Shown here: piece by piece, positions 6,816 to 20,115 of the stretch | Layout of the letters: each line of letters starts with the position of its first letter | Position numbering within the stretch: the stretch's first letter is position 1 | IMG/VR virus record: IMGVR_UViG_3300037149_000045 | Coordinates: 1-40,964 of that record | Source: a virus | Length of the DNA: 40,964 nt | Direction: 5' to 3' (one strand) | The notes under the pieces: model-generated | The model's database searches: none | Seen by the model: only the letters and a program-made list of their open reading frames with translations | Told to the model about the DNA's origin: nothing | Position numbers and translations under genes: made by a program

Positions 6816-7376
6816 TTAATTTTCTCCTCTGACTGTAGTATTATCGGCAGATTCATTTTTAATTTGAGAGTTTAAATAGGCGTATTCAGGGCCAAAGTAA
6901 GAAAGGGCAGCATCGTCATAGGCTTTACTGGCTTCTTCAAGGGTATCAAACAGGCCCAAATATTTACGGCCTTCAAGAGTTCCTAACTGGGCATGAAACT
7001 TACCAACGCTCTTCTGAAAGTAAACACCCTTAATTCCAGTCTTACTATTCTTATTTAGCTTTCTATTAGCCTGATTAGCAGTTTTAGTAACAAAGCGTAA
7101 GTTATTTTTTCTATTATCAGTAATATTTCGATTAATGTGATCTACTACCATTCCTTTTGGGGCCTTTCGCTTCATAACTAACTGATGAAGAAGAACTACA
7201 CCAGAAACATTACGTGCCTGAAAATAACCTTCCTTACTTATACACCATTGATATCCAAAAATCAACGGAGCATCTTCTAAATCAATTAAAGAGCGACCAA
7301 GTTCTATTCCATTGTCTATATCATGAATTATAAGATAGGTTTTTGTGTCTTGTTCTATTGAATTTGAGAATTTCAT
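6816..7376 (-). CDS. HNH homing-type endonuclease with AP2 domain
   Basis: The product has 186 residues. The HNH motif is visible as His64, the DH pair at 79-80 and Asn residues near 88-92 (VVDHINRN, then NNLR). The C-terminal 115-168 has GIKGVYF, then WLG-type LGLFDTLEEASKAYDDAA, which is a typical AP2 DNA-binding domain. Such proteins are free-standing homing endonucleases that copy themselves between related phages. AAAGGAAG precedes the ATG. A second gene of the same type lies at 8937-9461, so the two flank the origin-like region and initiator gene. Confidence 0.9.
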   Translation of the reverse strand: MKFSNSIEQDTKTYLIIHDIDNGIELGRSLIDLEDAPLIFGYQWCISKEGYFQARNVSGVVLLHQLVMKRKAPKGMVVDHINRNITDNRKNNLRFVTKTANQANRKLNKNSKTGIKGVYFQKSVGKFHAQLGTLEGRKYLGLFDTLEEASKAYDDAALSYFGPEYAYLNSQIKNESADNTTVRGEN

Positions 7377-7452
7377 AATACTGCTTCCTTTAAAATGGAG
7401 GGTTATATTTCCCTCTCTATATTTAATTATAAAATTATTTTCGTTTTTGGAG

Positions 7453-7497
7453 ATATAAAGTAAATTATATTTAAAAAAATGTAAATATACTTTATAT
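7453..7497. repeat. Inverted repeat ATATAAAGTA / TACTTTATAT
   Basis: The arms at 7453-7462 and 7488-7497 are perfectly complementary over 10 bp. Inside them, TATTTA and TAAATA can add six further pairs after a bulge. It could be a protein-binding site or a cruciform near an origin; no T-tract follows, so it is not a typical terminator. Confidence 0.6.
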
Positions 7498-7603
7498 AGA
7501 AAAAGAAGGCCACAAAAAATATTTTAAAGTTTTTTTAAAAAAAGTTAAGAAAAGCCCAAAACTGCCGATAATAAATGTGAATTACTTTATAGAGGGTTCT
7601 GTT

Positions 7604-7615
7604 TCTTGGCCAAGA
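7604..7615. promoter_or_regulatory. Perfect palindrome TCTTGGCCAAGA upstream of the initiator gene
   Basis: A 12-bp perfect palindrome, extending imperfectly to 18 bp with GT and AC at the ends, sits 28 bases before the initiator start codon. Its GC-rich centre stands out in AT-rich surroundings. It could be an operator for autoregulation or an initiator binding site. Confidence 0.45.
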
Positions 7616-7643
7616 CACTACCCAAAACACAGGGAGTGAAGAA

Positions 7644-8903
7644 ATGGAATCCTTAAAGTATACAGAACAACAGCCTCATTCACTTGAGGCTGTCTCTGTC
7701 TTACCTACTTTTACACCAGCCCTTCAAACTCGTACAGGTGCATTTCTGAAATATGATTACACCTACATAAAGTTGAAAGACGGCATTAAGAAAACTTATA
7801 TGCTTGCCACAGATAGATTTAAGCAGGCATTATTAGAAACAAATAAGGAAAAGCTGCCAAGAATTGATTTACGTGCTGGAACTATTTCAGGGGTATTCGC
7901 AGATTTCGATGACTTAAAAGGAACTATAGCTGTTATACCTGCTGCCTTTGGTGCTAAAACTTGGGCAGATGTTAGAAGGTATTTTTCTTGCTTCTTTTGG
8001 AATGGCTGTATTTTTAAATCTTTCTCGGGAAGAGCAAAAATCTTCTTCCCAGTTTCAATTCCAAAACTGACTACAACTAAATCAGAAAAAATATTAGAAG
8101 AGTTGCTTGGTCAATATATGAGAGCCTTAAATATAGATACAGATAAAAGTGGATTAAGATATTCCTTCATAAATAAAGAAAGTTACCCCATTCTATCAGC
8201 TTGGTTACTTTCTTCTGACTTTGATACAGCATTACAATACAACAATATGATATGTAAAAAGTATATATCAGCAGGTATGGAAACAGGTAAGCAATATGGG
8301 GGAGAAGGTAGAGATATAGGTATCACTTCATACCCCATAAAATCTGATTATAAGTGGAGAATAAATAATGAAGTTGAGATACCAGAGAATATGCTCAATA
8401 ATCTTAAAACAAAAAATAAAAATATTTCTGGTCTTATTCGATATGCCCTTGGTTCATCTTTTTGTGTTTCCTCGGGGGTTGCTATTCCAGTAGATTTATT
8501 AGCTACCGCCTTAAATATAACTAAACCATCTGCCAGTAGATTGATAAGAAATGGCATAAATCTTGGAATAATAAAAAAGGTTTCTGAATATATACCTCAC
8601 GTAAAGGCGGCTTCTTACTGTTTTACTGGTTTCTGGTGTAGTTGGGCCAAGCAAGTTATTAAGACAGCTCCTAGGGCCTCTACAACAGGAATAAAGACCA
8701 TTTTAGATACCATTAAAGACGGTAACTGGAATATGCCTCTGTTCAAGTTAACTAATTTCTTTGATTTAGAAGAAAAGTATATGGCCTTTGTCTTAACTAT
8801 ACCCAATATTCATGCCAAGACAGAGAGGGAGAAGCAAGCTAAAAATGCCTGGAAGAGTCATTTAAAACGTGACATAAATAAAAATATTAAAAAAGTGGCA
8901 TAG
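7644..8903 (+). CDS. Putative replication initiator with primase-like (AEP) domain and winged helix
   Basis: The product has 419 residues. FADFDD (residues 85-90) resembles the DxD metal motif of archaeo-eukaryotic primases. SGRAKIFFPV (128-137) and NIDTDKSGLRYSF (163-175) resemble their second and third motifs, in which an Asp and an Arg follow. A helix-turn-helix is likely at about 283-330 (NITKPSASRLIRNGI). Primase plus winged helix is the layout of plasmid and phage replication initiators. The gene lies right behind the origin-like region, with GGGAG before its ATG. It is the only replication-type protein seen, so the phage would borrow host helicase and polymerase. The match is by motif pattern only; an unrelated DNA-binding protein is possible. 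Confidence 0.5.
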   Translation: MESLKYTEQQPHSLEAVSVLPTFTPALQTRTGAFLKYDYTYIKLKDGIKKTYMLATDRFKQALLETNKEKLPRIDLRAGTISGVFADFDDLKGTIAVIPAAFGAKTWADVRRYFSCFFWNGCIFKSFSGRAKIFFPVSIPKLTTTKSEKILEELLGQYMRALNIDTDKSGLRYSFINKESYPILSAWLLSSDFDTALQYNNMICKKYISAGMETGKQYGGEGRDIGITSYPIKSDYKWRINNEVEIPENMLNNLKTKNKNISGLIRYALGSSFCVSSGVAIPVDLLATALNITKPSASRLIRNGINLGIIKKVSEYIPHVKAASYCFTGFWCSWAKQVIKTAPRASTTGIKTILDTIKDGNWNMPLFKLTNFFDLEEKYMAFVLTIPNIHAKTEREKQAKNAWKSHLKRDINKNIKKVA

Positions 8904-8936: not shown

Positions 8937-9461
8937 ATGATTAAATATAGATCAAAAGTCCATGTTTGTAAAAATAGTTATATAACAGTTATTGATATAG
9001 AAAGTGATAAAGAAGTTGCTAGGGCCTTTATTGATGCCGAAGATGCTTATAGAGCAGCTCAATATAGATGGGGATTAGATAAACATAGTTATTTATACAC
9101 GGGTATTGGATGTAAAATGGTAGGATTACATAGATTCTTACTTAATTTAGAAGTTGGTGATAGTAAAATAGTAGATCATATAGATAGAAATCCACTTAAT
9201 AACACAAAAGTTAATTTAAGATTATGCTCTGGGGCACAAAATCAAGGTAATAGAAAGATAAATAAAAATAATACTTCTGGATATAGAGGAGTTTCTTGGG
9301 AAAAGACAAACCAAAAATGGAAGGCATGTGTATATAAAAATAATAAACAAATTTGGTTAGGATTATTTGATTCGAAAGAAAAAGCAGCTATTGCTTATAA
9401 TGATGCTGCTATTATTTATTTTGGGGATTTCGCAACTTTAAACTTTGTTAAGGAGATATAA
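8937..9461 (+). CDS. HNH homing-type endonuclease with AP2 domain (second copy type)
   Basis: The product has 174 residues. His65, the DH pair at 80-81 and NN at 88-89 form the HNH site (VDHIDRNPLNN), followed by NLRLCSGAQNQGNRK. The AP2 domain covers about 115-170 (GYRGVSW, LGLFDSKEKAAIAYNDAA). It is clearly related to the minus-strand gene at 6816-7376 but diverged, so the pair did not arise by a very recent duplication. AAGGAAAAAA precedes the ATG. The stop overlaps the next start by one base. Confidence 0.9.
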   Translation: MIKYRSKVHVCKNSYITVIDIESDKEVARAFIDAEDAYRAAQYRWGLDKHSYLYTGIGCKMVGLHRFLLNLEVGDSKIVDHIDRNPLNNTKVNLRLCSGAQNQGNRKINKNNTSGYRGVSWEKTNQKWKACVYKNNKQIWLGLFDSKEKAAIAYNDAAIIYFGDFATLNFVKEI

Positions 9462-10808: not shown

Positions 10809-12506
10809 ATGACCTATAATATATTACAAGGTGATGTAAAGGAAGTATTAGCTACTATACCAGATAATTTTTATGATGGTTGTTTCTGCGACCCTCCGTA
10901 TGGATTACACTTTATGGGTAAGAAATGGGATTATGATGTTCCAAAGAAGGATACATGGCAGGAGGTTTATAGGATATTAAAACCAGGAGCATATCTATTA
11001 GCTTTCGGAGGGCCAAGAACCTATCATCGGCTGGTATGTGAAATTGAAGATGCTGGATTTATTGTAAGGGATTCTCTAACATGGCTTTTTGGGTCGGGAT
11101 TCCCAAAATCTCATAATATTTCAAAAGATATGGATAAAAGAGGAGGAAATAATCATATTAGTAAAGAGATAGGAATAAAAATTAAGGAAGCAAGAGAAAG
11201 TAGAGGATTAACAATAAAAGAATGTGATGATAAGTTTTGTAATTCTTCTACTAATTGGTCTTGGTTTGAAGGAAGACCTGCCGGACAAAGAATACCCTCA
11301 GATGAACTTTTTAGTTTATTATGTGAAGAATGGCCAGAACTATTGCCTTATTTTGAGCAAGTTAAAGAAGTTAATAGAGAAATTATAGCTGTGGGTAAAA
11401 GAGTAGTAAAAGAAAGCACTGTAATGTTTCATTCTGTTGGTGAAGAGTATGATATAACAACCTCTACAACAGATCCAGCTAAAGTATGGGAAGGATATGG
11501 AACTGCAATAAAACCTGCCTACGAGCCTATTGTATTATGTCAGAAGCCAATAGAGGGAACATATGCTGCTAACTGTTTAAAGTGGGGTTGTGGAGCATTA
11601 AATATAGATGGTTGTAGAATTGGTATAGAGGAAATACATATTAATAATGGTCCTGGACAATGGGCTGTTGGTAATCATGGTGCTGAAGAGAAGATGTTAG
11701 AAAGAAGCGGTGGTATTAGAACTCCTGGAAATGTATTACCGGGATTAGCAGGAAAAAATAACAAGGAATGGAAACCAGAAAAAATAAGCACACATCATGC
11801 CCCTTCTGGAACTTTTGCTGGTGGTGAGGAAGGAAGAGGCTCTGATACAACAACATATGAGGAGCATGTAGGTAGATTTCCAGCTAATTTAATACTGGAT
11901 GATGAAAGTGCTGAACAATTAGATTTACAAGTTGGTATTAAAAAATCTGGGCATATGAAGAAGGGAACTAAAACAAAGGGTGGACAAGGTAATGCTCTAG
12001 GAACCTTTAATCCTGGTGAAATAAAGAATGAAATAGAAGCAAGTATAGGTGGTGTATCTCGTTTCTTTTACTGTGCCAAGGTTAATGCCAAGGAACGTAA
12101 TGCTGGCCTTGAAGATGCTCCTGATTCTATTTTGGCTCGTTCTGGTGGTGCTCAAAATGCTGTAAATGAGGATAAAGATTATACAGAATGTCAAGGAATT
12201 GGATTAAATCATGTCTCCTCTGTTAAGAACAACCATCCAACAATGAAGCCTATTTCCTTATGTCAGTATCTATCACGTCTAATATTACCTCCTGATAGAC
12301 ATGATAAGAATAATTTAAGAAAGATATTAATTCCTTTTGCTGGCTCTGGTTCTGAAGTTATAGGTGCTCTATTATCTTCCTGGGATTATGTAGAAGGTAT
12401 TGAGATGGAAGAAACCTATGTAAATATAGCAAGACAGAGATGTGAATATTGGGAGAATAAAAATAAAAAAGAGAATAATGAGAATAAGGAGAAGAATAAT
12501 GAATAA
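10809..12506 (+). CDS. DNA (adenine or cytosine-N4) methyltransferase with inserted helix-turn-helix
   Basis: The product has 565 residues. DPPY at 28-31 is the catalytic motif of amino-methyltransferases, and FAGSGS at 510-515 is the AdoMet-binding motif. Catalytic motif first and AdoMet motif last is the beta-class order. NHPTMKP shortly before the AdoMet motif is also typical. Between them, about residues 115-200, is an insertion resembling an Xre-type helix-turn-helix (IGIKIKEARESRGLTIKECD, then IPSDELFSLL). The enzyme probably marks phage DNA against host restriction; no cognate restriction gene is seen. The 3' end overlaps the RusA gene by eight bases. Confidence 0.88.
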   Translation: MTYNILQGDVKEVLATIPDNFYDGCFCDPPYGLHFMGKKWDYDVPKKDTWQEVYRILKPGAYLLAFGGPRTYHRLVCEIEDAGFIVRDSLTWLFGSGFPKSHNISKDMDKRGGNNHISKEIGIKIKEARESRGLTIKECDDKFCNSSTNWSWFEGRPAGQRIPSDELFSLLCEEWPELLPYFEQVKEVNREIIAVGKRVVKESTVMFHSVGEEYDITTSTTDPAKVWEGYGTAIKPAYEPIVLCQKPIEGTYAANCLKWGCGALNIDGCRIGIEEIHINNGPGQWAVGNHGAEEKMLERSGGIRTPGNVLPGLAGKNNKEWKPEKISTHHAPSGTFAGGEEGRGSDTTTYEEHVGRFPANLILDDESAEQLDLQVGIKKSGHMKKGTKTKGGQGNALGTFNPGEIKNEIEASIGGVSRFFYCAKVNAKERNAGLEDAPDSILARSGGAQNAVNEDKDYTECQGIGLNHVSSVKNNHPTMKPISLCQYLSRLILPPDRHDKNNLRKILIPFAGSGSEVIGALLSSWDYVEGIEMEETYVNIARQRCEYWENKNKKENNENKEKNNE

Positions 12507-12963
12507 CTTAACCTTTGTGTTATCTGGATTACCAATTTCTGTTAATTGCTCTACTATTGTTCGTTGGGGTAGAAAAATTAATAGTAAAGATATGAATCAT
12601 TATAAAAAGCACTCAAAAGAAGCTATATTAACTTATTTTTCTACTTTAAATGAAGAGGAATTAAATAATTTTATTATGTCCCTTAAAGAAAAAGAATTAC
12701 ATTTATCCTTAACTTTTGGTAGTTCTTGGTATACTAAAAAAGGTAAAATTAAGAAGCAAGATAGTTCAAATCTCTTAAAGTCAGTAGAAGATACACTTAT
12801 AGAAAGTTTAAATTGCTGGTCCAAAGACAAAGAATTAGACATAGAACTTGATGATAGACAAATATTCACTCATACTCTGCATAAAATAGAGGTATCAGAA
12901 GAGATTACTATAATAACATTGGAGGTAATTAATGGAAATAAAGAAGTTAAAGAAATTATCTAA
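12499..12963 (+). CDS. rusA: RusA-type Holliday junction resolvase
   Basis: The start at 12499 is chosen over 12442 because AAGGAG lies directly before it and the RusA fold then begins at once (NNLTFVLSGLPISVN). In the 154-residue product Asp88, Asn91, Lys94 and Asp98 (KKQDSSNLLKSVEDTL), then Asp118-Asp119 (LDDRQIF), match the acidic resolvase site. RusA enzymes cut four-way junctions and help to resolve replication or packaging intermediates. It overlaps the methyltransferase gene by eight bases, and the next tiny gene starts inside its 3' end. Confidence 0.85.
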   Translation: MNNLTFVLSGLPISVNCSTIVRWGRKINSKDMNHYKKHSKEAILTYFSTLNEEELNNFIMSLKEKELHLSLTFGSSWYTKKGKIKKQDSSNLLKSVEDTLIESLNCWSKDKELDIELDDRQIFTHTLHKIEVSEEITIITLEVINGNKEVKEII

Positions 12964-13817: not shown

Positions 13818-14528
13818 ATGACTTCAATTTTACCCTTTGATTTGTCGGAAGTCTTACAGTTAGAACAAAACACTATGCAAATTCTCGGTTTAAAAAAGGA
13901 GAACTATAAAACAACAGACTACTTTAAGAATGAAGTAGCTTTGTATCTGTATAATAAATGGATATTAGATAATGATAATAGAAATTTAATAGTTTATTGC
14001 TTTCCTCTAATCAATTCCTTAATAGTAAAAAATTATGGGCTAGTAAAACAGCTCAATAAATATAATATAACACAAGATGAGGTATTTAATGAGTTAGTCT
14101 TATTTTTAATCTCATATCTGCCAAAAATAGATTTAAAGACATTAAATAAACAAGGAAAGGTGAGAAAGATATATTCCTACTTTACCTTTATATTAGGTTA
14201 TCGTATTTTATATATGCGAAATAAGGAACAAAATAAATACGAAGATAGAGAGTTTGTTGAGATAGATATAAGAGATTATCCTATTGATGATGAGAAATTA
14301 CATGAATTAAACTATTTTATGGACTTTTTATCCGATAGTTTTAATCCATTAGCAGAACCATTACTTGCTCTATTAAAAAATAATAGGGATAGCAATAGAC
14401 GAATAATTGCTCAAAATAATGACAGCCTTATTAAAGAATTAGTTATAAAAACAGGTTTCCATTTAAAAGAAGTTAAAGAAGCCTATAAAAACTTGATTGA
14501 TGAATACATTTTTTTATCTAATTACTAA
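13818..14528 (+). CDS. Putative phage sigma-like transcription factor
   Basis: The product has 236 residues. Residues 54-140 follow the pattern of sigma-70 region 2: a helix with NRNLIVYCFPLINSLIV, then ITQDEVFNELVLFLISYLPKID, then KIYSYFTFILGYRILYMRNK. The last part resembles T4 gp55, where a phenylalanine-rich helix precedes basic residues. Residues near 200-230 (ELVIKTGFHLKEVKEAYKNL) could be a region 4-like helix-turn-helix. It sits just before the terminase and virion genes, so it could turn on late transcription. This is motif resemblance only, and other helical DNA-packaging factors are possible. Confidence 0.4.
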   Translation: MTSILPFDLSEVLQLEQNTMQILGLKKENYKTTDYFKNEVALYLYNKWILDNDNRNLIVYCFPLINSLIVKNYGLVKQLNKYNITQDEVFNELVLFLISYLPKIDLKTLNKQGKVRKIYSYFTFILGYRILYMRNKEQNKYEDREFVEIDIRDYPIDDEKLHELNYFMDFLSDSFNPLAEPLLALLKNNRDSNRRIIAQNNDSLIKELVIKTGFHLKEVKEAYKNLIDEYIFLSNY

Positions 14529-16842: not shown

Positions 16843-19224
16843 ATGATTAATCCAAGTAAGTCAATAAGAAACTATTTTAAAAGGCTTTCTGATAATAAAT
16901 ATGTTGAGAGAAAGCGTAAAGAGCAAAATGAGAATAATACTAAAGCTATTAAAGCCAGAGAAGAGGCTCTACAGAAAAACTCTGGCAAAATATCAGAAGT
17001 ATTATCTCTTATGAACCAATCTTCTGTTCCTGTTATTACCCCTCAATATTCTAATAAGCCTTATATTCCCCCCTCTAAAATATGTTCAGATTCTGCAGCT
17101 ATAAAAAATAATAATATAGCCTTTGATGATTATTTATCTGGGGAATTTGCCTCAACTGCTACTCTATTTAGTGGATTAGGTTTTCCTGGATTTCCTTATT
17201 TGACAGAACTTACACAAATTACAGAATATCGTGATTTATCTGAACGAACTGCTAAAGAAATGACAAGAAAGTGGATTAAATTTAGAACTTCAAGCAAGGA
17301 AGATAGAGGAGAACAAATATATAAAATAGAGGCCAAACTAAAACAATTAAAGGCTAGGGATTTATTTCAATCTGCCGCAGCTATGGATGGTTTTATGGGC
17401 CGTTGTCAGATATTTATGGATTTAGGAGATTCAGGAGGTAATATATCTACTGAAGTTAGTCAAGAATTAGAAACTCCTTTAACCCTATCCCCATTAAAGA
17501 TTAAAAGAGATAGCATTAAGGCTTTGAAACTTATTGAGCCTATTACAACTTATCCTGCTTCTTATAATGCTTCTTGGCCACTCAAACAAAATTACTATGT
17601 TCCTGAAGCTTGGTGGGTATATGGTCAGAAGGTTCATCGTTCTCGCCTATTAACCTTTGTGTCTCGTCCTTTACCTGATTTATTAAAGCCAGTATATAAT
17701 TTTTCTGGCATGTCTCTATCTCAATTAGCACAGCCTTATGTAGATTATTGGCTATCTACTCGTAATGCTGTTGGAAAATTACTTAAAAATTATTCTACTA
17801 CAACTCTAAAAATTAATCTACAAATGCTCTTACAGGGAAATAGATATCAGGAGATTTTAGATAAGGCCCGTTTCTTTACTGGAATGCAAGATTCTCAAGG
17901 TATATTTTTATTAGATTCTTCAGAGGAATTGGAGAAAATACAGACTAATTTATCCGGTCTTGAAAAACTACAATCACAGGCACAGGAACATATGGCTGCT
18001 GTTGCTAAAACTCCTCTAACTATTCTATTAGGTATTACTCCTTCTGGGCTAAATCCAACTAATGAGGGTGATTTAAAAGTTTATTATTCTTATATTCATG
18101 ATATGCAAGAATGTCTTTTTAGAGAGAATTTAGAACATCTTATCAAAGTAATCATGCTTTCTGAATTTGGTGAGATACTGGAAGATTTAACTTTTGATTT
18201 TGAACCCCTCTTTGAAATAACTGGTAAAGAACAGGCAGCTATTCGTAAGAGTGATGGAGAAACTGATTCTGTATATGCTCAAACACAAGTATTTACTCCA
18301 CAGGAAATCAGAGAAAAGGTAGCATCTGATCCAACTTCTGGTTATAACAATATAGATGTTTCTAATCCTAAAGGTGGTTTCTTACAGGGTGGCAAATTAG
18401 GACAAACAGCAGAACCAACAGAACAAGCACAGACCACCCAACCAGAAGAGGAAGGAGAAGGGGAAGAAGAATCAGATGAGCCCGATACTGATAATGCTAC
18501 TGATTCTAATATTGCTTCTGATAAATCTTTAGATAATGTCAAATTAAATAGAGCCGAAGAGAAGATTTATAATATAGTAATGGACCATCTATCTTCTGAA
18601 TTATCCTCATTAACTTCTCAAATAAGAAAAAGTGGACATTATAAAGATTTAAATTATGGCTTAAATATAGACAAGCTAAATATAATTACTGATAAATTAA
18701 AACAGCCACTTTCTAAACTGTATTTTAATGGATATCAAAGCGCAGAAGCTAAATTAAGACTCCCAGAACAAGTTAAACAGAATATAACTGGTGATTCTAT
18801 TTATACAGAACAGGCAAGAAAAGAAAGTATTAATTGGGCTAAAAATAATGCCGCTAAATTAATAACAGGTATAGATCAAACAACCAAAGATAATATTAAT
18901 ACAACTATAACCAAGGCTATGACTCAAAACTGGTCTGTTGATAAATTAGCCACTACTTTATCTTCTTCACATGCCTTTTCTGCTTCAAGAGCTCGTATGG
19001 TTGCTTTAACAGAATCAAGAGCAGCTAAAAGTAATGGTCAGATAGATAGTTATAGATTACATGGCATTACAAAAAAATCTTGGTTAGCTGCTTCTGATGC
19101 TTGTGATGAATGTGCCAGTAATGAAGCAGACGGACCAATAGATATTAATACCTCATTCTCTTCTGGTGATGATGTTCCGCCACTTCATCCTAACTGTAAT
19201 TGTAGTTGTGAACCAGAAATATAA
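16843..19224 (+). CDS. Portal (DUF1073-like) fused to Mu F-like minor head protein
   Basis: The product has 793 residues. Residues 100-450 match the DUF1073-type portal (LSERTAKEMTRKWIKF, YPASYNASWPL, TPLTILLG). An acidic linker at about 530-556 joins this to a C-terminal domain with SASRARMVALTESRAAKSNG around 715-732. Two cysteines at 754 and 757, then PPLHPNCNCSC near 780-788, form the conserved Mu F/SPP1 gp7 end. In many phages portal and F-like protein are separate genes. The portal is the ring through which DNA enters, and the F-like part is a minor head protein. Only the short 16802-16842 gap separates it from terL. Confidence 0.88.
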   Translation: MINPSKSIRNYFKRLSDNKYVERKRKEQNENNTKAIKAREEALQKNSGKISEVLSLMNQSSVPVITPQYSNKPYIPPSKICSDSAAIKNNNIAFDDYLSGEFASTATLFSGLGFPGFPYLTELTQITEYRDLSERTAKEMTRKWIKFRTSSKEDRGEQIYKIEAKLKQLKARDLFQSAAAMDGFMGRCQIFMDLGDSGGNISTEVSQELETPLTLSPLKIKRDSIKALKLIEPITTYPASYNASWPLKQNYYVPEAWWVYGQKVHRSRLLTFVSRPLPDLLKPVYNFSGMSLSQLAQPYVDYWLSTRNAVGKLLKNYSTTTLKINLQMLLQGNRYQEILDKARFFTGMQDSQGIFLLDSSEELEKIQTNLSGLEKLQSQAQEHMAAVAKTPLTILLGITPSGLNPTNEGDLKVYYSYIHDMQECLFRENLEHLIKVIMLSEFGEILEDLTFDFEPLFEITGKEQAAIRKSDGETDSVYAQTQVFTPQEIREKVASDPTSGYNNIDVSNPKGGFLQGGKLGQTAEPTEQAQTTQPEEEGEGEEESDEPDTDNATDSNIASDKSLDNVKLNRAEEKIYNIVMDHLSSELSSLTSQIRKSGHYKDLNYGLNIDKLNIITDKLKQPLSKLYFNGYQSAEAKLRLPEQVKQNITGDSIYTEQARKESINWAKNNAAKLITGIDQTTKDNINTTITKAMTQNWSVDKLATTLSSSHAFSASRARMVALTESRAAKSNGQIDSYRLHGITKKSWLAASDACDECASNEADGPIDINTSFSSGDDVPPLHPNCNCSCEPEI

Positions 19225-19272
19225 CTTTATTATAGGAATTAAAGGATAAAAGGAATATAAAAGGAATATAAA

Positions 19273-20115
19273 ATGATTAGTAAAATGATTACTTATAAAA
19301 ATGAACGATTAACCTACGATAAACTTACCTCACGTTCCTATGATACTAATGGTTTTTTACATGTATCAGGTTGTAATATTTCAAAAAATCAAATATCTCC
19401 TTATAATGGTTATGAAATTCCTGACTGGGAACAATTAGCATTAGAAAGTAATAGAGTTTATTATATTTTAAGACCAGCAGATGAATTGGCGAAGGCGGCT
19501 TCTACCTTTAATAATCTTCCACTAATGGATGTTCATATTCCTCTATCTTCTTTTAATCTTGAAAATACCAATATTAAGGCCCATCAAATAGGTGCCACAG
19601 GTTCTTTATGTAGATTTGAAGAACCTTATCTTGTTAATGATTTAGTTATTTTTACTGCCGGAGCTATTGCAGCAATTCAAACAGAAGAGCAGAAGGAGAT
19701 TTCTTGTGCTTATGCTTATGATATAGTATTAGAATCTGGCGAATTTAACGGAGTTCATTATGATGGTATAATGACAAATATTAAAGGAAATCATGTTGCT
19801 ATAGTTCCAGAAGGTAGAGCAGGACATGATGTGTGTGTAGCAGATAACAAGCCAGATAATTTAAAAATAGCTAAAAAAATTGCTGATTTACTTTATCCAA
19901 TTTGCTCCATTTCTGAAACTATTAACACCTCTGATAAAATTAAAAATATGCTAACTCCATTAATTACTTCTGATACAATTATTCATGAACCTGGAGAGAA
20001 TGGTCCTTGGTCAATTCGTTCAGAAAAGACAGGGAAGAAAATATGGTCAGGTAAAAGTAAGGAGGAGGCTAAAAAAGCATTAAAAAGAATGGCAATGTTT
20101 AAGCATACTAAATAA
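19273..20115 (+). CDS. DUF2213 head protein, N-terminal part (putative prohead protease)
   Basis: The product has 280 residues. The N-terminal 200 residues match the DUF2213 family from memory: RSYDTNGFLHVSGC, LPLMDVHIP, QKEISCAYAYDI and NHVAIVPEGRAG. This family is common between portal and capsid genes and is thought to include the prohead protease. The C-terminus carries GPWSIRSEKTGKKIWSGKS, a small module found on other phage proteins. It lacks the usual C-terminal half, which appears as the next gene. RBS AAAGGAATATAA precedes the ATG and is itself doubled. Confidence 0.8.
   Translation: MISKMITYKNERLTYDKLTSRSYDTNGFLHVSGCNISKNQISPYNGYEIPDWEQLALESNRVYYILRPADELAKAASTFNNLPLMDVHIPLSSFNLENTNIKAHQIGATGSLCRFEEPYLVNDLVIFTAGAIAAIQTEEQKEISCAYAYDIVLESGEFNGVHYDGIMTNIKGNHVAIVPEGRAGHDVCVADNKPDNLKIAKKIADLLYPICSISETINTSDKIKNMLTPLITSDTIIHEPGENGPWSIRSEKTGKKIWSGKSKEEAKKALKRMAMFKHTK

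Follow-up and report, generated by a model that had tools for sequence, protein, structure and literature searches.

Replication gene content of the phage genome

How might a phage that encodes neither a helicase nor a polymerase begin to copy its DNA? This question is raised by IMG/VR record IMGVR_UViG_3300037149_000045, which was analyzed over its full 40,964 nucleotides (the window). A sequence-only reading had singled out the gene at 7644–8903 as a possible AEP primase–winged helix protein and the sole replication factor of a contractile-tailed phage with a plasmid-like strategy. The two ends of the record share 127 identical bases, and this terminal repeat indicates that the genome is complete and circularly closed at 40,837 bp. 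The contractile tail is borne out by the morphogenesis genes, which include a portal (PF06381), a DUF3383 sheath (E = 2e-100) and TerL (phrog_38). The absence of a helicase and a polymerase was likewise found to be correct: among ORFs of at least 60 aa, no canonical helicase Walker A/P-loop is present save for a single fortuitous match in a protein of the tail region, and the ORFs scanned have no match to polymerase or helicase families. An HUH nickase was ruled out as the initiator, as ORFs of at least 60 aa contain no HUH motif. No multi-copy repeat array that could represent iterons is observed, and PADLOC gave no match. The claim of a sole replication gene stands only in part. The genome also encodes a RusA-like resolvase (12442–12963) and an N6/N4 methyltransferase; the 419-aa early protein encoded at 7644–8903 is the sole initiator or primase candidate of this complete genome, not its sole DNA-metabolism gene.

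Several additional features of the genome were observed. The 793-aa polypeptide encoded at 16843–19224 is composed of a portal (PF06381, aa 128–475), an acidic linker and a Mu gpF-like head protein (PF04233, aa 683–788, slightly below the cut-off), unlike the arrangement in Aeromonas phage 56, where two genes encode the portal and the head protein. In the N6/N4 methyltransferase (10809–12506), an internal region (aa 110–193) weakly matches phrog_3, a family of phage repressors, which gives the impression of a helix-turn-helix inserted mid-enzyme. Ahead of the terminase genes, 13818–14528 encodes a 236-aa protein that appears sigma-region-2-like by eye, without library support, and that has a relative with 29% identity (L047:13540–14331) in an otherwise different phage. 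Adjoining the contig join, 354–2420 encodes a 688-aa protein of degenerate SNGSLSISGQ-type repeats, probably a fibre or surface protein. Finally, a 30.4-kb contig (L002/L003, IMGVR_UViG_3300049728_000029) shares 99.99–100% identity with the present phage over the stretches fetched; this contig lacks the 419-aa protein and appears to be an incomplete assembly of the phage analyzed here.

An orphan gene flanked by endonuclease genes

The gene and its surroundings contain the following features:

6816–7376, minus strand: homing-type HNH endonuclease on one side of the gene (phrog_99, E 2e-40)
7377–7643, no strand: 267-bp leader of 26% GC between divergent genes; candidate origin or promoter
7644–8903, plus strand: orphan 419-aa protein with a putative AEP-like primase domain and a winged helix, candidate replication initiator (ORF reading; no library or collection matches)
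7658–7704, plus strand: strong hairpin in the first codons (−22.1 kcal/mol, z −6.4)
8937–9461, plus strand: HNH_3/AP2 endonuclease on the opposite side of the gene (PF00847, 9e-10; PF13392, 3e-7)

The ORF is real: it starts with ATG, and the AGGGAG upstream is a good ribosome-binding site. The two flanking endonucleases are 36% identical to each other. Of the four TACTTTATA 9-mers in the window, three lie in the leader (at 7454 on the minus strand and at 7488 and 7583 on the plus strand). The hairpin, which has a perfect 9-bp inner stem (7670–7678/7685–7693), could serve as an operator, a primer site or an element of translational control. The detrended circular GC-skew minimum is located at 7,771, inside the ORF; gene direction confounds GC skew, so this position is at most compatible with an origin there.

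Searches of Pfam, PHROGs, NCBIfam and PDB sequences with the 419-aa protein gave nothing of note save a weak MarR-type winged helix, and no match supporting an AEP was found in these libraries up to E 10. Relatives were sought without success in 50,697 phages and 72,556 plasmids (tblastn), among IMG/VR and GTDB contigs (peptide patterns), in the complete records of 72 related phages (which share the terminase, sheath or capsid with the window) and in 558 bacterial genomes, some of them drawn twice. Matches to custom motif patterns were rejected as homologues: these are unrelated ORFs, and the match in L152 lies antisense to a gene. Two single-sequence AlphaFold models, calculated without homologues, have pLDDT values of 34 and 42 and pTM values of 0.21 and 0.35 and are unusable. 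Foldseek and VIA-align searches with the better of these low-confidence models yielded generic α/β folds only, with no AEP among the matches listed, and results from so poor a model were counted neither for nor against an AEP.

Motifs of the N-terminal domain

The published AEP motifs are hhhDhD/E, sxH (His being replaced by Gln, Lys or Arg in some families) and hD/E (PMC5862659). In the 419-aa protein, the following counterparts are observed:

7845–7865, plus strand: KxLP counterpart, KEKLPRI (aa 68–74), found upstream of motif I in BT4734-type AEPs; aligned to KKRLPMA
7893–7913, plus strand: motif I, VFADFDD (aa 84–90), with D87 and D89 as predicted metal ligands; direct reading
8019–8054, plus strand: motif II, SFSGRAKIFFPV (aa 126–137), with Lys132 where BT4734-type AEPs read SxSGxGxK; from hhalign
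8133–8168, plus strand: motif III region, IDTDKSGLRYSF (aa 164–175), with D165 and R172; from hhalign

The three peptides on which the sequence-only reading was based are all present, FADFDD at aa 85–90 with its two aspartates at 87 and 89, SGRAKIFFPV at aa 128–137 and DTDKSGLRYSF at aa 165–175. VFADFD (aa 84–89) conforms to motif I; motif I alone occurs in 160 of 4,268 ORFs and is therefore weak by itself. Motif II is matched in its Lys variant only, with Lys132 aligned to the BT4734 Lys, and the Ile-Asp pair at aa 164–165 conforms to motif III, in register. KEKLPRI was matched to the family KKxLP element in a separate hhalign sub-alignment, on the expected side, and this element is present in many family members. 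KxLP, hhhDhD (D87, D89), SxSGxxK (K132) and hD...R (D165...R172) thus follow one another in the order of BT4734/VirE_N-type AEPs. An expression for these ordered motifs matches this ORF alone among 4,268 and 9 of 100,000 shuffles, although it was written post hoc, with the ORF in view, and catches just 4 of 15 BT4734 members.

Comparison with AEP profiles

BT4734/VirE_N-type AEPs were gathered with a consensus that served as a search query only. Its matches are annotated BT4734/BF3469 proteins, VirE-N primases and CRISPR-associated primase-polymerases, and 15 fetched members make up the BT4734 alignment. Many of these carry SPSGxGLK as motif II, with Lys for His, and hDxS...R as motif III; the counterparts in the 419-aa protein are SFSGR-AK and IDTDKSGLR. 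Comparison of the BT4734 core profile with aa 31–230 in hhalign gave a score of 22.09, which ranks first of 401, the best of 400 real-ORF decoys having scored 21.87. Since four independently fetched RepB-family AEPs are among the runners-up, together with a contig that a motif-I-like pattern had brought in, the hhalign score does track AEP-ness. Motifs II and III are placed in the family register by hhalign unprompted, and HMMER gives the same register. The alignment does not reach motif I, owing to a spacer to motif II that is ~12 residues longer. With the full BT4734 alignment, 2 of 400 decoys outscore the N-terminal domain, none of 150 shuffles reaches the observed score and the reversed sequence scores 11. 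The hhalign probability is only 7–9%, with E-values that refer to a single comparison, and the HMMER score against the BT4734 core is negligible (−0.0 bits). A rank of 2 of 4,268 for the full BT4734 model in HMMER was discarded, as the alignment sat in the C-terminal tail.

The Pfam cut-off of 22.4 bits for PF08800 (BT4734-like_N) is not reached, and up to E 10 the protein matches neither this profile nor RepB_primase (PF16793) nor the ColE2 Replicase (PF03090). The RepB profile performs no better than on shuffles, 82 of 200 of which reach the score of the protein. As all family profile tests failed, the protein was not filed under PF08800, PF16793 or PF03090. The profile search against AEP and RepB-like families that had been suggested at the outset is favorable only for the BT4734/VirE_N-type core. 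Taken together, the motifs and profile ranks make it likely, but do not prove, that the protein is an AEP, since homologues, a confident model and a significant library match are lacking; the earlier assignment is retained to this extent. It is best described as a probable AEP whose family is uncertain, with ColE2 Rep as its functional analogue.

The winged helix and relation to known systems

One feature is found C-terminal to the motifs:

8436–8618, plus strand: winged helix-turn-helix, about aa 265–325 (MarR_2 match; MEP301 gp55 similarity)

The helix-turn-helix claimed to follow the motifs is present, if weakly. MarR_2 matches aa 285–314 with an E value of 0.22 when the whole protein is searched and 0.069 when the search is confined to the C-terminal part, and the winged helix of gp55 from Methylophilales phage MEP301 shares 38% identity over 54 aa. 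This similarity, which covers the winged helix only, is the sole external similarity of the 419-aa protein.

The closest known system is the BT4734/VirE_N-type AEP (PF08800), which includes the CRISPR-associated primase-polymerase type B and the primases of Flavobacterium and Cellulophaga phages. The order and style of the motifs are shared: KxLP, hhhDhD, SxSG..K (Lys for the usual His) and hD.s...R. In contrast to this type, the 419-aa protein falls below every profile threshold, has a longer spacer between motifs I and II and a motif II turn that is one residue shorter, and carries a winged helix instead of a PriCT or VirE/D5 helicase domain. In several PF08800-type members inspected, a helicase is fused or adjoining, whereas the present phage has none. 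The RSF1010 RepB-prime (PF16793) is likewise a helicase-free AEP primase with a similar spacing between motifs II and III, but it shows no profile similarity to the 419-aa protein, and RSF1010 encodes a helicase and an initiator of its own, each a distinct protein (PMC4538821). By analogy, the protein also resembles ColE2 Rep (PF03090), a single Rep with no helicase or polymerase of its own, although the two have no sequence match. The slot ahead of the terminase genes holds a different replication protein in the related DUF3383-sheath phages L043 and L037; the L043 protein (17664–19286) is typed as a DUF3854–DUF5906 primase-helicase. This enzyme occupies the slot in phages that share the capsid/portal/sheath module with the present phage, is unrelated to the 419-aa protein and carries a D5-type helicase domain.

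Discussion

The reading that we favor, and consider reasonably probable, is that the 419-aa protein is the replication initiator of the phage: a very diverged AEP-type primase, nearest to BT4734/VirE_N in motif style, fused to a C-terminal winged helix. It draws on the ordered motifs and the profile rank, the weak winged helix, the lack of another initiator candidate in a complete genome that has no helicase or polymerase, the AT-rich leader and the hairpin at the start of the gene, the GC-skew minimum and the primase-helicase encoded upstream of TerL in relatives. The main competing account retains an initiator but not a primase. As for lambda O or other phage initiators, the protein would bind the origin via its winged helix and recruit the host helicase, its N-terminal domain would not be a catalytic AEP, and the DxD and SGR motifs would be coincidental or relics. 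The weakly detected winged helix and the statistical weakness of the AEP similarity are in agreement with this account, as is the location of the most similar outside winged helix, in an MEP301 gene that lies a short distance upstream of genes for RusA and ssDNA binding. An origin within the initiator gene is also a lambda-type feature. To accept it, however, chance must have placed KxLP, hhhDhD, SxSGxxK and hD...R in order and ranked the N-terminal domain first of 401 against an AEP profile, and we regard such an initiator as unlikely, though worth keeping in view.

A replication role could also be absent altogether, with the protein acting as a transcription regulator or another early DNA-binding protein and the host replicating the genome without a phage initiator. 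The winged helix, which is MarR-like, is the only part with a library signal, and the strong hairpin at the start of the gene could be an autoregulatory site. A length of 419 aa with a large extra domain, a complete 40.8-kb genome with no other initiator and a GC-skew minimum inside the gene all argue against a regulator, which is improbable. Descent from a plasmid, as a RepB-prime (RSF1010) or ColE2 Rep family primase proper, would preserve the same functional logic, and an AEP and a winged helix in one protein without a helicase do resemble ColE2 Rep; yet neither PF16793 nor PF03090 gives a match up to E 10, the RepB profile is equalled by shuffles and tblastn finds nothing in plasmids, which leaves this origin very improbable.

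For the favored diverged AEP initiator, a mechanism can be proposed whose steps beyond motif recognition are inferred. The winged helix would bind an origin in or beside the 5′ end of the gene, and the AEP domain would then make a short primer there, with D87, D89 and D165 holding two metal ions and K132 and R172 serving the nucleotide. Extension of this primer may fall to the host helicase and DNA polymerase. The model for such a handover is ColE2 Rep: once it has bound its origin and synthesized a short primer with its AEP domain, host DNA polymerase I takes over (PMC4538821). It is established that some duplodnaviruses encode hardly any replication genes and depend on the host (PMC11348598); the surprise here is therefore the protein and not the absence of a polymerase. 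The proposed plasmid-like strategy is apt as an analogy with ColE2 Rep, but phages with a single initiator that borrow the host replisome are common. What is new is the extreme divergence of the protein and the combination of a BT4734-like AEP and a winged helix without any helicase.

A more specific proposal is that the protein represents an unrecognized AEP family, in which a helicase-free BT4734-like primase with a winged helix is the only replication protein and carries out origin-specific priming in the style of ColE2 Rep, from an origin in or beside its own gene. This proposal is tentative, and we think it somewhat doubtful as a whole. If right, it would extend the AEP primases of mobile elements by a highly diverged branch and provide a phage case of single-protein origin priming, which is known mainly from small plasmids. 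It would also document a swap of replication modules, with a primase-helicase in close structural relatives and a helicase-free protein in this phage.
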